NCBI GenBank assembly: GCA_026389335.1
Contig: JAPLIB010000008.1
Span: 1-41,505 of the forward strand
Reading direction: 5' to 3'
Source: Cyanobacteriota bacterium
GTDB taxonomy: Bacteria > Cyanobacteriota > Cyanobacteriia > PCC-6307 > Cyanobiaceae
DNA length: 41,505 nt
A program made the translations under genes and the position numbers. Below the pieces are notes generated by a model, which ran no database searches, had not been told where the DNA came from, and saw only the letters and a list, made by a program, of their open reading frames with translations. Shown in pieces: positions 4,134 to 32,892 of the stretch (its first letter is position 1; every line of letters begins with the position of its first letter).

Positions 4134-5057
4134 TCAGGCTGCCAGCTGCTGGCGAGCCGGCCCCCCATCTGACCCCTGGGCACTGGGGTTGGCGGCTACG
4201 GCCAGCGGTAACGGCACCATCTCCCCTGGTGCCACCAGGCGCTTGAGGCTCAGCGGCGCATAGAGCCCACCGGGCTGGTCCAGTTCCACCTTCCCCTGGG
4301 AGCAGAGGAACAGCAGCGCCCAGAACACCCCCACCCGATCCTGATCCAGGTCTTCCTGGGCACTGGCCTGATCCACCGCCTGCCCCCACGCCTGCACCAG
4401 GTCTTCGAAGCCCACCCAGCTGTTGTTGGTGCTGCCGCTCCAGCTCTGCAGGAAGCGGCTGAGGGCGGCGGTGGTTTCCGGCAGCTTTTCGCGGTGGGCC
4501 AGGGCCGCCACCTGGGCGATGGCAGCCCGGTCGCTGTAGCGCTTGGGCCGCTGCTTCTGGCGCACCCGACCCTCATCGGCTTCCAGTTGGGCGGCGATGT
4601 CTTCCAGCTGGCGGATCAGCTCTCCCAGGGTCACGGGCCGCTGCAGCGGTGGCGGGGCCACCAGGCGCCGCTGCAGCCGCCGCTCCGGCCTGGCCGGCAG
4701 GCTGAAGCCACCGTCCTCCCCAGACCAGTCGTCGCTGGGATCGTCGTCCCCGCAGGCCTCCAGTACGAGCACTTCCGCGGGGAAGGTGGCCGCTTCCAGC
4801 ACCTCCGCCTTCAACCCCACCAGCACCGAGGCCGCCAGGAAGGCCTCGCTGCTCTCAGCCAGATCCTGCTCATAGCTGCCCCCCTGGATCGCCATCAGCC
4901 TGGGCGCCTCAATCCGCTGGCGCAATTGGTCGAGGAAGCCGTCGATCACGGCGATCACATCCACATCCCAGGGATCAATCTCACCCCGTTCGGCGGCATC
5001 CTGCAGCAGACGGATGGCCAGCCTGGCGCCCGCTTCAGCCATCCTGCCCCCGGCCAT
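4134..5057 (-). CDS. scpA: segregation and condensation protein A (ScpA)
   Basis: ScpA is the kleisin that links the SMC ATPase heads and ScpB in the bacterial condensin, which organises and separates chromosomes. The N-terminal part (GARLAIRLLQDAAERGEIDP and the following helices) matches the kleisin SMC-neck-binding region. The middle is low-complexity, acidic and Arg-rich (about residues 95-150). The C-terminal winged-helix region (VFWALLFLCSQGKVELDQ, about residues 240-260) is the head-binding end. Length is 307 residues, slightly long for the family owing to the middle linker. An alternative ATG at 5042 (MAEAG) would also suit the homology. No scpB is in view. Confidence 0.88.
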   Translation of the reverse strand: MAGGRMAEAGARLAIRLLQDAAERGEIDPWDVDVIAVIDGFLDQLRQRIEAPRLMAIQGGSYEQDLAESSEAFLAASVLVGLKAEVLEAATFPAEVLVLEACGDDDPSDDWSGEDGGFSLPARPERRLQRRLVAPPPLQRPVTLGELIRQLEDIAAQLEADEGRVRQKQRPKRYSDRAAIAQVAALAHREKLPETTAALSRFLQSWSGSTNNSWVGFEDLVQAWGQAVDQASAQEDLDQDRVGVFWALLFLCSQGKVELDQPGGLYAPLSLKRLVAPGEMVPLPLAVAANPSAQGSDGGPARQQLAA

Positions 5058-27776: not shown

Positions 27777-28869
27777 ATGGCCTTGCTCGCAAACGACAAT
27801 CGCTTGCCTGAGATCGCCCGACCCCTGGCCGAGCCCTTACGACCCTTGCGGTTGGGTTTGGCGGGGGCCGGCCGTTTCGGCCAGTTGCACGCGTCTGTGC
27901 TCGCCCGGCTTCCCGGCGTGCAGCTGCTGGCCGTGGCGGATCCGGATCCCGTGGCGCTGGAGCGCACCCTGGTGGGCCATGGGGTGGAACGCAGCTATGG
28001 CAATGGGCTGGAGTTGATCGCCGACCCAGAGCTCGACGCCTTGGTGCTGGCCACGCCCGATGCACAGCATCACGGCCAGGCGCTGGCGGCCCTGCGCAGC
28101 GGGTGCCCCGTGTTTATCGAAAAGCCCCTCGCCACCACCTGGGCTGAGGCGCGGGAGTTGGCAGGCGCTGCCCAGGTCCATCACACCTGAGTTTCAGGTC
28201 GGACTGGTGTTGCGTTACGACCTGTCCCACCGCCTGCTGCAGCAGCGAATCAGGGCCGGTGCCTTCGGCGACCTGGTGTCGATTCGCACCCAGCGCAATT
28301 GCAGCCAGAGCTCGTTCGCTTCCATCGCTGAGCGGATTCACACGGTGTTCCGGACCCTCACCCACGACATTGATCTGATCCTGTGGCTCTCGGGTTCGCG
28401 GGTGAGGCGCGTGATGGCCACCGAATACCGCCAGGGGGATCACCTCTCGCCCCAGGGCTGTATCGCCCTGCTTGAGCTGGCCAATGGCTGCATCGCTCAG
28501 CTGGAGAGCAGTTGGTACGTGCCGGCTCAGGCCCCGGCCAACATTCAGGGACAGCGCGCCGCCAGCTGCATTGACGCGGAGCTGGCGGTGGTAGGCACGC
28601 GCCAGAGCGCCAAGCTGCGCTGGCTGGACAGCCCCCTGCAAATCTGGAGCCCCGAGGGGGTTCAGCGGCCTGACACCGATTTCTGGCCTGAGGTCGATGG
28701 ACGGGTGGTCGGCGCTCTGGCCGAGCAGATGGCCGATTTCGCCCGGGCCGTACGCAGCGGTGAGCCCTCCGCCATCGCCGACCTCGGCGCCGCCGTCGAG
28801 GGTCTGCAGATCGCCGAGGCGATCATTGCGTCGGCCTCCACTGGCCAGCCGGTGAGCCTCGATCCGTGA
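27777..28869 (+). pseudogene. Gfo/Idh/MocA-family oxidoreductase, frameshifted
   Basis: An NAD(P)-dependent oxidoreductase, usually acting on sugars or inositols, broken by one frame change. The first frame runs from ATG 27777 to TGA 28188-28190 and holds the dinucleotide fold GAGRFGQLH (about residues 27-35) and the EKP motif (VFIEKPLATTW). The C-terminal domain continues in another frame, from FQVGLVLRYDL (about 28192) to the stop at 28867-28869, with HDIDLILWLSG as a substrate-domain landmark. The switch lies between about 28175 and 28192 and fits one extra base or two missing ones. The whole would be about 360 residues, a normal length. It may be a true pseudogene or a sequencing error; the substrate is unknown. 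Confidence 0.85.
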
Positions 28870-29219
28870 GCCGAGGGGGCGACCGGTGGTTGGGCTGAAC
28901 ACACGGGGACGGGCTGGACATGTGGAAAGTCCCCTGTGAAGGGGTGCACCGCAGGCCGCAGACCCCCATGCGGCCATGATTAGGGTCTCCATTCGGCCCT
29001 TGCCCTGCGCCGCCGGCCCGCTCGGCCGGGGCTCGGCCGTTTGCTGAACCCAACCGCTTCGGCGTCGAAGTCCCATTGCCGCTGGACTGGAGGCCCCGCA
29101 GGCTCCAGAAGCAAGGTGCCCGCCTCAGCTGCTAAGGGCGGGTCGGACGTGAACGACTCACCGCGATCTCATCCTGTTCCGAATCGGATCCTTTCGGTGG
29201 CGGGGCGCCCTCGGTTGCT
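28870..29219. other. spacer with two small hairpins
   Basis: 350 bases between two broken genes. CCCC/GGGG (28931-28944) and GGCCGCA/TGCGGCC (28954-28975) form consecutive hairpins, without a T tract afterwards. The minus strand has no supported gene. The frame leading into the adenylation gene is open from 29136 but offers only the GTG at 29220 as a normal start. Confidence 0.45.
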
Positions 29220-31279
29220 GTGTGTGGGTGGTATTTGCGCAGCAGTGCGCTCCTGGTCGATGGCCAGCACCGCCAGGCGGTGGAGCTACGCAATGGCCAG
29301 AAAGATGGGCGGCTCGGTTGTTGTCTGGCCTGGCCCTGGTCGGATCCCTGGCTGGATCTGCCGCGCTTGCTTGGGCTGTGGCTGGCCGGCGGCACCTGGA
29401 TTGCCCATGCAAAGGGCGGGGATCGGGAGGCGCTGGCGTGCGAGCTGGCGGCGCAGGTCTTTGGCCCGGAACAGGGGGCGGGGATCTGGCAGAGCCTCCT
29501 GTTCAGCTCGGGCTCCACCGGCGAGCCCAAGGTCCTGGTGCGGGGCTGGCGTCAGGCCCTGAGCGAAGCCGATGCCTATGCCGATCTGCTGCATCTGCCC
29601 GCTGGAGCCCAGGCCGCCCTGTTGGTCAACCCCTGGTTCGGCGCCTGCACAAAACAGCTGTTGGCGGGACTGCTGAACGGCTGGTGCCAGACCATCGGAC
29701 GGGCGAATCTGGAGGCGATCGGTCTTGGCGGGGACCTGCTCTATGCCACCCCCAGCCAGCTGCAGGCCCTGGGGCCGCCGGCGCCAGGGGCTGGTGGGTT
29801 CGCCTGGATCTCGCTCACCGGTGAAGCCTGTCCGGCCGCACTCTGGCCGCTGCTGCGCCGTTGGGCTCGGCCGGAGGCGAGGCTGCTCAACGCCCTCGGC
29901 GCCAGTGAGACCGGTGTGATCGCCAACCAGGTGCTGCCTCTGGACGGTGACTGGCAGCCCTTCGCCGCGGAGGTGGCCCAAGGCAAGCAGGTGGATCTGC
30001 TGGACGACCAGTTGGTGGTGCTGTGCCAGGCGGGGGCGATCGGCCGGTTACGGGTGCGTGGTCAGGCCCTGATGGAAGGCCAGCTGCTGCTGCAGGGTGC
30101 CGGCTGGCGGCTGTGCGCTCTGTCGGGTGGCCCCGACGGGATGGAGTTCCTCAGCCACGATCTGGCCCGCTGGAGTGGTAAGGGCGGCTGGAATGGCTGG
30201 GGCGCAGCAATCAGCTGGTCAAGCGCCATGGGGAGTGGATCGATGCGGCGCCCCTGCAGCAGCTGCTGGAAGGCCAGCCGCGCGTGCGTCGCTGCCAGCT
30301 GTTCGGTGAGGGTGACGGGTTGGTGGCCTGGCTTGAAAGCGAAGACCCCACCCTGGGGTGGCTGGAGGCGCTACACGGCATCTTGGTCCCTGAGCTCGCC
30401 GATCCACGGCTGCTGCCGCAGCGGTTGTGTGCCCTGGATTCCCTGCCGCTGAACCACAACGGCAAGCTCGATCTGGCCCTCCTGCGGGCGGCCCATGCCG
30501 ATCCGGGGCGGCTGGGGGGCGTGGGCTTCAGCCCCCTGCCACCCGTGCTGCCTATCGCTGGGCTGTGCCCGGGTGCGCTGCCACTCGATTCCCTGGATCA
30601 GGCCCAGCTGATTGCCCGACTGCAGGACACCAACCTGATCTGGTGTGGTCCTGGTCTGCGGCAGTTGGCCGGCGCACGGCTTGAGCCGGTGGGTCTGCTG
30701 GGCCTGCCATTCCCGCGGGTGCCACCTGCGTGGCAAGTGGGCCAGGGGCCCTCGCTGCGCCAGGAGGCTCTGGCCCTGCTGGAGCCCCTGCTGTTGATCA
30801 CGAACCAGGGCCTGGGTCGTCGCATCTGGCTCGGGGGCTTTTCGGCGCCGGCCTGGTTGGCGTATGCCCTGGCGGAGTTGTTGGAGGAGAGGGGTTTCCC
30901 GGTGGCGGGGGTGATCCTGCTGGATCCGGTGAATGTGTTCAGCGGGACCTTCCGCTGGCCCTGGCGACGCTGGCTGGCGGATCGCTGGCGGCGGGGAGTT
31001 GGTGGCCGCTGGGGTCGCCAACGGCCAGTCCAGGGGCAGCTGCAGAAAGCCTGGACCCAGGAGCTGCTCGGCCGCTGGCGGCCCAGCCCCCTGGCCGGGG
31101 GGCGGTTGCTGGTGATCCGCAGCCGCTGGCGGCGACGGCTGCCGCGGCGTCACGCCCGGGCCCTCCACCCCGGCATGCACCTCCTGGACCTCCCCTGTCC
31201 TCGCCACGAGGCCATGCTTCGGGATCCGGCGGTGATCGCCGCCTGGCTGGAGCGGATCAGCGCCACGCTGGAGTCCTGA
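29220..31279 (+). pseudogene. NRPS-like adenylation-thioesterase protein, frameshifted
   Basis: One gene in two frames. The first (GTG 29220) carries adenylation motifs: the phosphate loop FSSGSTGEPK, LNALGASETG (A5) and SHDLARW (A7). At TGG 30189-30191 the frame must step back one base to continue as EWLGRSNQLVKRHGEWID (A8), then PLNHNGKLDL with the A10 Lys. The rest is an alpha/beta thioesterase domain. It has GGFSAPA with Ser codon 30842-30844, LLDPVN, and a late His (CPRHEAMLRDP). A carrier-like helix (LPLDSLDQAQLIARL) lies between, without a convincing full carrier domain. It should activate a carboxylic acid as the adenylate and release or transfer it. The adenylation N-terminus is short. 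One missing G in a run explains the break, so decay and sequencing error are both possible. Confidence 0.82.
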
Positions 31280-31346: not shown

Positions 31347-32141
31347 TCAGAGCAGCGCCCGCAGCCAGTGCCACAGCATGCCCAAGGTCTCCAACCCCAG
31401 GGTGCCGATCAGCAGGCGATAGATCCACAGCCGCGCATTCGGCCCCAGGGCCAGGGCCGCACCCAGCCAGCCGCCCAGGGCGCTGCCCACCAGCAGCGGC
31501 AGGGAGGCGAACCAGTCGATCTCGCCCTTGGCGATGAACACGACCAGGGAGGCGATCGTGGCCATGCCGATCAGCACCACCTTGATCACATTGGCCCTGG
31601 GCAGCGACAGCCCGCCGATCAGCACCAGGGCCACCAGCAGGTAGGTGGCGGCATCGAGCACGATCAGGCCGGTCCAGAAGCCCACCCCACCCATCAGGAC
31701 CTGAAGCAGGGGCGATGGCCTGGGGTCGTTGGCTTCGTCGCGGCCGTCGTCCTTCAACCAGCGGTGGGGGCGCAGCAGCACCATCAGCAGGGCCAACAGC
31801 AGGGCTCCGTCAATCAGCAGGCGGATCCCCCGCATCGGCAGCACCGCCGCGATGATCGCCCCGAGCACCGCCATGCCCAGAAAGGCCGGCAGCAGTCGCC
31901 CGATCAGGCGCCAGGGAATCGCTCCGGCCCGGTGGAAGCGCCAGGCGGCGGTGACCATCCCCGCCAGCACACCCACCCGGTTGGTGCCGTTGGCCACGCT
32001 CGGCGGCAGGCCCAGGGACAGCAGTAGGGGCAGGGTGATCGCCGAGCCGCTCGAGGCGGCGGCGTTAAGAAAACCGCAGAGCACCCCACCGCCCAGGGAC
32101 CACAGCCAGGTCTGGACGAGCGGGGGAGCGGAGATCAGCAT
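31347..32141 (-). CDS. TauE/SafE (TSUP) family permease
   Basis: A 264-residue membrane protein with about eight spans, of the sulfite exporter TauE/SafE family. The first repeat, with GFLNAAASSGSAITLPLLLS and NGTNRVGVLAG (within the first 65 residues), and the second, with GFWTGLIVLDAATYLL, show the two-fold internal repeat of the family. Members move sulfite, sulfonates or related organosulfur anions across the inner membrane. I chose the ATG at 32141; the frame's earlier ATG at 32186 overlaps the preceding gene. It follows a sulfite-oxidase-fold enzyme by 22 bases, which makes a sulfur oxyanion a plausible but unproven substrate. Confidence 0.85.
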   Translation of the reverse strand: MLISAPPLVQTWLWSLGGGVLCGFLNAAASSGSAITLPLLLSLGLPPSVANGTNRVGVLAGMVTAAWRFHRAGAIPWRLIGRLLPAFLGMAVLGAIIAAVLPMRGIRLLIDGALLLALLMVLLRPHRWLKDDGRDEANDPRPSPLLQVLMGGVGFWTGLIVLDAATYLLVALVLIGGLSLPRANVIKVVLIGMATIASLVVFIAKGEIDWFASLPLLVGSALGGWLGAALALGPNARLWIYRLLIGTLGLETLGMLWHWLRALL

Positions 32142-32163
32142 TCGGTTGTGCGGCAGGCCAGGC

Positions 32164-32892
32164 TCACAGCCCGGCGAACCATTCATAGCCCTGGTCTTCC
32201 CAGGTGCCGCGGCGCAGGGGATCCAGGCTGGCCAGCAGGCGGATGCCCGTGACCCACTTGCTCTGCTTGTAGCCGAGTTTCAGGGGAGTGGCCAGTCGCA
32301 GGGGGGCGCCGTTGGCGGCGGGCAGGGGCGCCCCGTTCATGCGGCTGACCAGCAAGGTCTGGGGGTGGAGGGCCGTCGGCCGGTCCCAGGTCTCGAAATA
32401 ACCGTCAGCCGAATCGAAGGCCAGGTAGCCCGCCAGGGGGGAGACGCCCGCCAGGGCCAGCACATCGGCCAGGCGCACGCCGCCCCAGGCCACGATCGCC
32501 GCCCAGCCCTCCACACAGACGTGGCGGATCACCATCTCGCGCTGGGGCAGGGCGGCCAGATCGGCCAGGGACAGGCTCAAGGGCCGATGCACCAGGCCCT
32601 CCACGCTGAGGCGGAAGCTGGCGGGATCGATCTGGGGCACTGCCTGGAAGTTGTTCACCAGCAGCCGCTGCGGTTCCACCTGATCGCGGCGGAATTCCGG
32701 TATCGGGCCGCGGCTCTGCAGCCAGGCCTCCAGCCGTTCGTTGAGGGGCCGACTGGCGCCGGCCACCCCAGGCCCGAGGTCATTAAGGGCGCAACCGCCG
32801 AGCAGCAGTTGGCCGGCGCTGGCCAGGCCGGCCTGCAGCAGCTGGCGGCGGCCAGGGCCAGGAGATGGGGGCATCGGTGCTGCCGGGCTCAT
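32164..32892 (-). CDS. molybdopterin-dependent oxidoreductase, sulfite-oxidase fold
   Basis: A 242-residue enzyme of the sulfite oxidase/MsrP (YedY) superfamily. The Mo-ligating Cys is most likely in VIRHVCVEGWAAI (about residue 122), with the following WGGVRLADVL. The N-terminus has RRQLLQ followed by a hydrophobic stretch ending in LLLGGCA (about residues 16-34). This resembles a twin-arginine signal plus a lipobox, predicting export and lipid anchoring. It lacks the dimerisation domain of true sulfite oxidases. ATG 32892 overlaps the preceding cytochrome gene's stop by four bases. The b-type cytochrome next door is its likely electron partner, as in MsrPQ, although the cytochrome family differs. 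The substrate is unknown. Confidence 0.87.
   Translation of the reverse strand: MSPAAPMPPSPGPGRRQLLQAGLASAGQLLLGGCALNDLGPGVAGASRPLNERLEAWLQSRGPIPEFRRDQVEPQRLLVNNFQAVPQIDPASFRLSVEGLVHRPLSLSLADLAALPQREMVIRHVCVEGWAAIVAWGGVRLADVLALAGVSPLAGYLAFDSADGYFETWDRPTALHPQTLLVSRMNGAPLPAANGAPLRLATPLKLGYKQSKWVTGIRLLASLDPLRRGTWEDQGYEWFAGL

Follow-up and report, generated by a model that had tools for sequence, protein, structure and literature searches.

The locus examined here raises two questions: how a gene with adenylation and thioesterase parts comes to be divided between two reading frames, and what an enzyme that joins these two activities without a carrier domain would activate and onto what it would load the product. 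The window, by which we mean the whole analysed stretch of 41,505 nucleotides, is contig C8 of a genome of 4.05 Mb, assembled in 171 contigs and assigned to the Cyanobiaceae. An earlier note on this DNA had described a free-standing adenylation-thioesterase (A-TE) enzyme at 29220-31279, split by one missing G. The gene is a damaged member of a rare family of carrier-less A-TE proteins.

One gene in two frames

A codon-use frame plot gives coding scores to frame +3 of the forward strand from about 29248 to 30186 and to frame +2 from 30187 to 31275, the two abutting with a switch at 30186/30187. Two intact orthologues from genomes of the same family, G227 and G239, place the break almost identically by tblastn. 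Alignment in frame +3 ends at 30185 (G239) or 30176 (G227) and picks up in frame +2 at 30182 or 30185, respectively, so that both breakpoints fall between 30176 and 30185. A stop codon in frame +2 at 30179 requires the frame change to lie just downstream of it, confining the frameshift to 30179-30187. The second frame stands at −1 relative to the first, and the frame arithmetic agrees with the loss of one base. The single-base loss proposed in the earlier note thus stands, while its placement at TGG 30189-30191 moves a few bases upstream.

The frame +3 segment (29248-30186), which carries an in-frame GTG at 29220, encodes the N-terminal adenylation subdomain, recognised by PF00501 and 57.4% and 57.7% identical to the two orthologues. 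Frame +2 opens with the C-terminal adenylation subdomain (30182-30490), which contains motifs A8 to A10 and aligns with the orthologues through NGKLD (30458-30472). It continues through a short LDSLDQAQL segment and helix (30584-30625) into an alpha/beta-hydrolase thioesterase domain (30629-31279) with Ser, Asp and His at 30833-30850, 30914-30928 and 31202-31216. The motifs through A10 and the catalytic triad claimed earlier were therefore all located. In G227 and G239 one uninterrupted frame, of 738 and 816 codons respectively, codes for this protein; the two orthologues, 724 and 735 aa long, are laid out as an N-terminal helix, the adenylation motifs and the thioesterase. Codon use, tblastn breakpoints and orthologues thus agree that the frames at about 29248-30186 and 30182-31279 belong to one A-TE gene and not to two.

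Two other readings of the split were rejected. That an adenylating enzyme and a thioesterase are encoded by separate adjoining genes would fit the different frames of the two halves, but both homologues are read in one frame and the adenylation C-subdomain falls within the second, leaving this reading practically no chance. Programmed frameshifting, for which the second frame has the right −1 register, is equally negligible, as no canonical in-frame −1 slippery heptamer occurs at 30100-30299 and the orthologues are read through without any shift.

An adenylation domain joined directly to a thioesterase

The adenylation part matches PF00501 (AMP-binding) above its cut-off (E 1.9e-11, 43.9 bits against 29.9), the match being restricted to profile positions 167-382 (within 162-383 overall). 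All three homologues contain A3 (SSGSTG.PK) and A10 (NGK.D, with the A10 lysine). Alignment with cyanobacterial nonribosomal peptide synthetase (NRPS) domains places Gly in all three at position 235 of GrsA numbering, the Asp of which we take to be the contact for the substrate amino group, and Lys at position 239. Since the amino-contact Asp is replaced by Gly and the position four residues later is Lys, the sequences suggest an acid without an alpha-amino group as substrate, perhaps one with a second negative charge. The best structural match of this part is DltA (Z 24.4, 415 residues, 3.6 Å). The A-TE proteins have motifs A3, A5, A8 and A10 in common with DltA and the aryl and acyl ligases, stand-alone enzymes that adenylate carboxylic acids, but differ from them in the fused thioesterase, the Gly for the amino-group Asp and the Lys at 239. 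The NCBIfam matches listed, to AA-adenyl-dom, TIGR02372 and PRK08308, all lie well under their cut-offs.

The C-terminal part is a thioesterase by alignment and fold. PF00975 is matched weakly (17.6 bits in the window, 16.1-18.3 among the homologues, against a cut-off of 26.4), and alignment and model both show an alpha/beta-hydrolase fold with Ser, Asp and His in place. The Ser and His align with those of all 13 cyanobacterial thioesterases compared, while the Asp aligns with that of the five type I enzymes, which the A-TE proteins thus resemble in all three residues, and not with that of the eight type II enzymes. In the GxSxG motif the homologues have Pro or Lys in place of the second Gly, and strand 1 is followed by a loop some seven residues shorter than that of the cyanobacterial thioesterases compared. 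Fold matches to the C-terminal model include NocB (1.0e-10), RedJ (4.1e-9), Pks13 (9.2e-9), EntF (5.2e-8) and DEBS; structural alignment gives Pks13 (Z 18.8, 216 residues, 3.5 Å), NocB (Z 17.3, 206 residues, 3.8 Å), EntF (Z 16.5, 198 residues, 4.1 Å) and SrfTE (Z 15.7, 180 residues, 3.1 Å). Other alpha/beta hydrolases come close (ABHD6 at Z 15.7, esterases and dehalogenases at 15.1-15.6), and with values so nearly equal a thioesterase is not proved by the fold alone. The C-terminal model was built on an alignment that included thioesterases, which biases it toward their fold; an earlier model of the whole protein, built without them, has a similar order of strands and helices, at low confidence in that region. 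The earlier note would have been overturned by a non-thioesterase fold in the C-terminal half, which instead models as a thioesterase.

Between these two domains a carrier would be expected, and the earlier note had found no convincing one, only a carrier-like DSL helix. The distance from NGK to the first thioesterase strand is 52 residues in G227 and in G239 and 58 in the window, compared with 112-130 in A-carrier-TE proteins obtained by a pattern search of cyanobacterial loci (seven rows representing six proteins, as L023 and L075 are the same gene). A model covering the last 296 residues (mean pLDDT 77.0; the whole-protein model is weaker, at 63.3) shows LDSLDQAQL as a lone helix directly before the first thioesterase strand. 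No Pfam carrier match is found between the domains, in 63 aa of the window or in the homologues. Of the three Pfam families relevant here, only AMP-binding therefore passes its cut-off, with Thioesterase under it and PP-binding unmatched. Because of the short spacing, the model and the missing Pfam match, we conclude from sequence and prediction that the A-TE protein is without a carrier domain, in agreement with the first of the earlier claims. On the same three counts the DSL helix, called carrier-like in that note, is not a carrier.

The segment might still be a shrunken but working carrier, with a phosphopantetheine-bearing Ser that supplies the thioesterase in cis. LDSLDQAQL is invariant in all three homologues, and its Ser lies 38-44 residues past NGK, near the 54-60 of the carrier Ser in the comparators. 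Only 14 residues, however, separate this Ser from the first thioesterase strand; the total is about 60 residues short of the A-carrier-TE proteins; Pfam recognises no carrier; and from the last adenylation helix to the first strand the model contains nothing more than the DSL helix and a four-residue helix of low confidence. Many of the structural alignments, judged by their first aligned residue, start at model residues 30-36, making the segment the start of the thioesterase domain. Spacing and model led us to reject a carrier remnant, which we regard as very unlikely. The carrier-less arrangement shares the order of adenylation before thioesterase with NRPS termination modules (EntF, SrfA-C, AB3403), but lacks their carrier, being about 60 residues shorter, and their condensation domain, and matches the adenylation profile only in part. 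Foldseek aligned the whole model with these three over 749-799 columns at low TM-scores (0.31-0.44 by query).

Rare relatives and a serine-type ketosynthase

The A-TE gene is rare, being present in three of 400 genomes of the family and intact in two. With the first half as query, three of 300 genomes of the family matched at E 1e-15 (the window genome, G239 and G227), and a two-protein profile found five of 400 at E 1e-20, these three together with G202 and G024, which encode condensation-adenylation-carrier modules and not A-TE. The search for the same architecture in related genomes, proposed in the earlier note, thus returned intact copies in G227 and G239, both in a single frame and neither divided into separate genes. 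The second half had no match at E 0.001 in 41 other genomes of the genus, some of them incomplete. A wider contig scan with the C-terminal half gave Fulvivirga and two Streptomyces (41-49% over 52-73 residues), taken as matches to the adenylation C-subdomain. In a draw of 386 genomes from the phylum, which did not contain G227 and G239 (both would have matched), 31 matched with E 1e-15 or lower, one of them being G000. The remaining 30 match in part only, ending by profile position 506 of 743; L038, which reaches this position, reads by eye as adenylation and carrier without thioesterase. None of 91 plasmid records had one place covering 80% of the query, and PHROGs gave two weak matches for the A-TE and none for the ketosynthase described below. 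A search of 22 genomes for the thioesterase family at E 1e-10, a limit that the A-TE itself does not reach, found none in five family members.

The remark that picocyanobacteria, among which the earlier note places this genome, are not known for NRPS genes is not supported: condensation-adenylation-carrier modules occur in two of the 400 family genomes, of which one belongs to the same genus. The part of PMC11837572 consulted agrees, describing few clusters as typical of picocyanobacteria and some terpene, PKS and NRPS clusters among the MAGs of that study. L046 and L047 are closely similar NRPS modules of the condensation-adenylation-carrier type in two family members, one of them of the same genus.

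In G227 the genes for the membrane protein, the ketosynthase, the A-TE and the permease follow one another. The start of the A-TE gene overlaps the end of the gene for a 400-aa ketosynthase, and its own end is overlapped by an amino-acid permease gene. Upstream of the ketosynthase gene lies that of a protein of 171 aa, whose Vut_1 match falls slightly under cut-off. The description of the enzyme as free-standing therefore suits the window copy and not that of G227. In G239 a ferritin-like gene precedes the A-TE gene on contig C7, and the membrane protein and ketosynthase genes are at the end of contig C17. As the A-TE and the ketosynthase are on separate contigs there, G227 alone shows the gene order. 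The two C17 genes are directly preceded by that of a type III polyketide synthase (L018:11483-12631), DpgA-like by an NCBIfam match below cut-off.

At E 1e-40 a ketosynthase orthologue occurs in two of 300 family genomes, the same two with an intact A-TE; the A-TE was searched in 400, and the co-occurrence is valid for the 300. At E 1e-50 none of the 386 phylum-draw genomes matched, in a search without a positive control. With a two-row profile the orthologue was not found in the window genome, whose closest ketosynthase is distant (5e-30), nor was a match to the membrane protein found there, again without a positive control. On contig C75 of the window genome (L087:6352-9141) a carrier-like gene, a ketosynthase and a type III polyketide synthase of the chalcone/stilbene type stand in a row.

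The two partner ketosynthases (L011:150-1352 and L019:139-1326) are FabF-like and have Ser in place of the catalytic Cys, whereas the one other ketosynthase looked at in each of G227 and G239 has Cys. They score below cut-off against models of fabF (136.6 and 144.6 bits) and of AmcF of the cispentacin pathway (115.2 and 126.4 bits) and, like these types, keep the His and Lys/His motifs. They differ in the catalytic Ser, since AmcF is described, in the part of PMC10698177 consulted, as a ketosynthase with a conserved Cys, Cys146. Carrier matches number two each in G227 and G239, all on other contigs.

The surroundings of the A-TE gene are partly shared among the genomes, as homologues of its neighbours show. 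An intact TauE/SafE family permease gene follows it in the window (31347-32186, reverse strand; Pfam, 45% identity by tblastn) and has a homologue in the A-TE region of G227. Homologues of this gene and of the molybdopterin oxidoreductase and cytochrome b561 genes of the window lie within about 20 kb of the G227 A-TE, and in both G227 and G239 the window oxidoreductase described below has a homologue some 7-8 kb upstream of the ketosynthase.

A copy probably damaged recently, and its intact relatives

That the one missing base is the sole damage, as the earlier note implied, is not supported. The orthologues have about 50 additional conserved N-terminal residues (alignment score 135 between G227 and G239), the expected coding place of which in the window is 29136-29247. 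In no frame of 28870-29380 did these residues score above shuffled sequence, the best values being 36 for G227 and 27 for G239, where the 95% points of the shuffles lie at 40 and 38. The GTG at 29220, from which the split gene had been read, is thus probably not the original start, judging from the alignment. The adjoining upstream gene, for a Gfo/Idh/MocA oxidoreductase (27843-28869, forward strand; Pfam), is also frameshifted, near 28187, according to the frame plot and to two-frame tblastn with the G227 and G239 homologues. The window accordingly holds at least two frameshifts (28187 and 30187); four further frame changes in the plot, near 4142, 17458, 19621 and 20402, were read by eye as real gene ends or starts.

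Changes unique to each lineage, summed over three segments, number 61 in the window, 60 in G227 and 70 in G239; for the first adenylation segment by itself the counts are 32, 22 and 24. As an overall excess of amino-acid changes is absent in the window lineage, any decay, if real, is recent. We read the window A-TE as a young pseudogene; from its sequence the copy looks inactivated and would presumably yield no product.

The main rival is that the one-base shift is an error of sequencing or assembly and that the organism makes the full A-TE protein. Persistence of constraint until recently makes such an error possible for the shift taken alone; the catalytic motifs are preserved, codon use is coding-like on either side and the overall rate of change is not raised. 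One erroneous base would not, however, cover the second shift in the adjoining gene (which could itself be an error), nor account for the unrecognisable N-terminus or for the ketosynthase and membrane-protein partners that were not found. We therefore consider an error a serious possibility, but a doubtful one.

Our favoured interpretation, held with moderate confidence, is that the window gene is a recently inactivated carrier-less A-TE, of a kind that in two related genomes is accompanied by a small membrane protein and a ketosynthase of the Ser type, the set probably making up a rare small pathway. In textbook NRPS systems the activated acid is loaded onto a carrier before the thioesterase acts. 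In the intact relatives the adenylation domain would activate a carboxylic acid as acyl-AMP, and the acyl group would bypass an internal carrier, to be received either in trans by CoA or a carrier or directly by the serine of the thioesterase. This domain may then release the group or pass it on to an acceptor that the ketosynthase makes or binds. A bolder version, which we think unlikely, is that the intact members form a new carrier-independent acyl-transfer pair, in which the A-TE moves the acyl group from AMP to serine within one protein and the Ser-type ketosynthase condenses or transfers oxygen-esters and not thioesters. Among abstracts in the literature we recognised neither a carrier-less A-TE nor a Ser ketosynthase of this kind, though one may be in print.

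The window copy suggests a gene that seems to be disappearing from one lineage. The interest lies not in this broken gene but in the probable rare small pathway of its intact relatives, where an A-TE without a carrier and a Ser ketosynthase, together in two genomes, would offer a compact test of direct cooperation between adenylation and a serine hydrolase.
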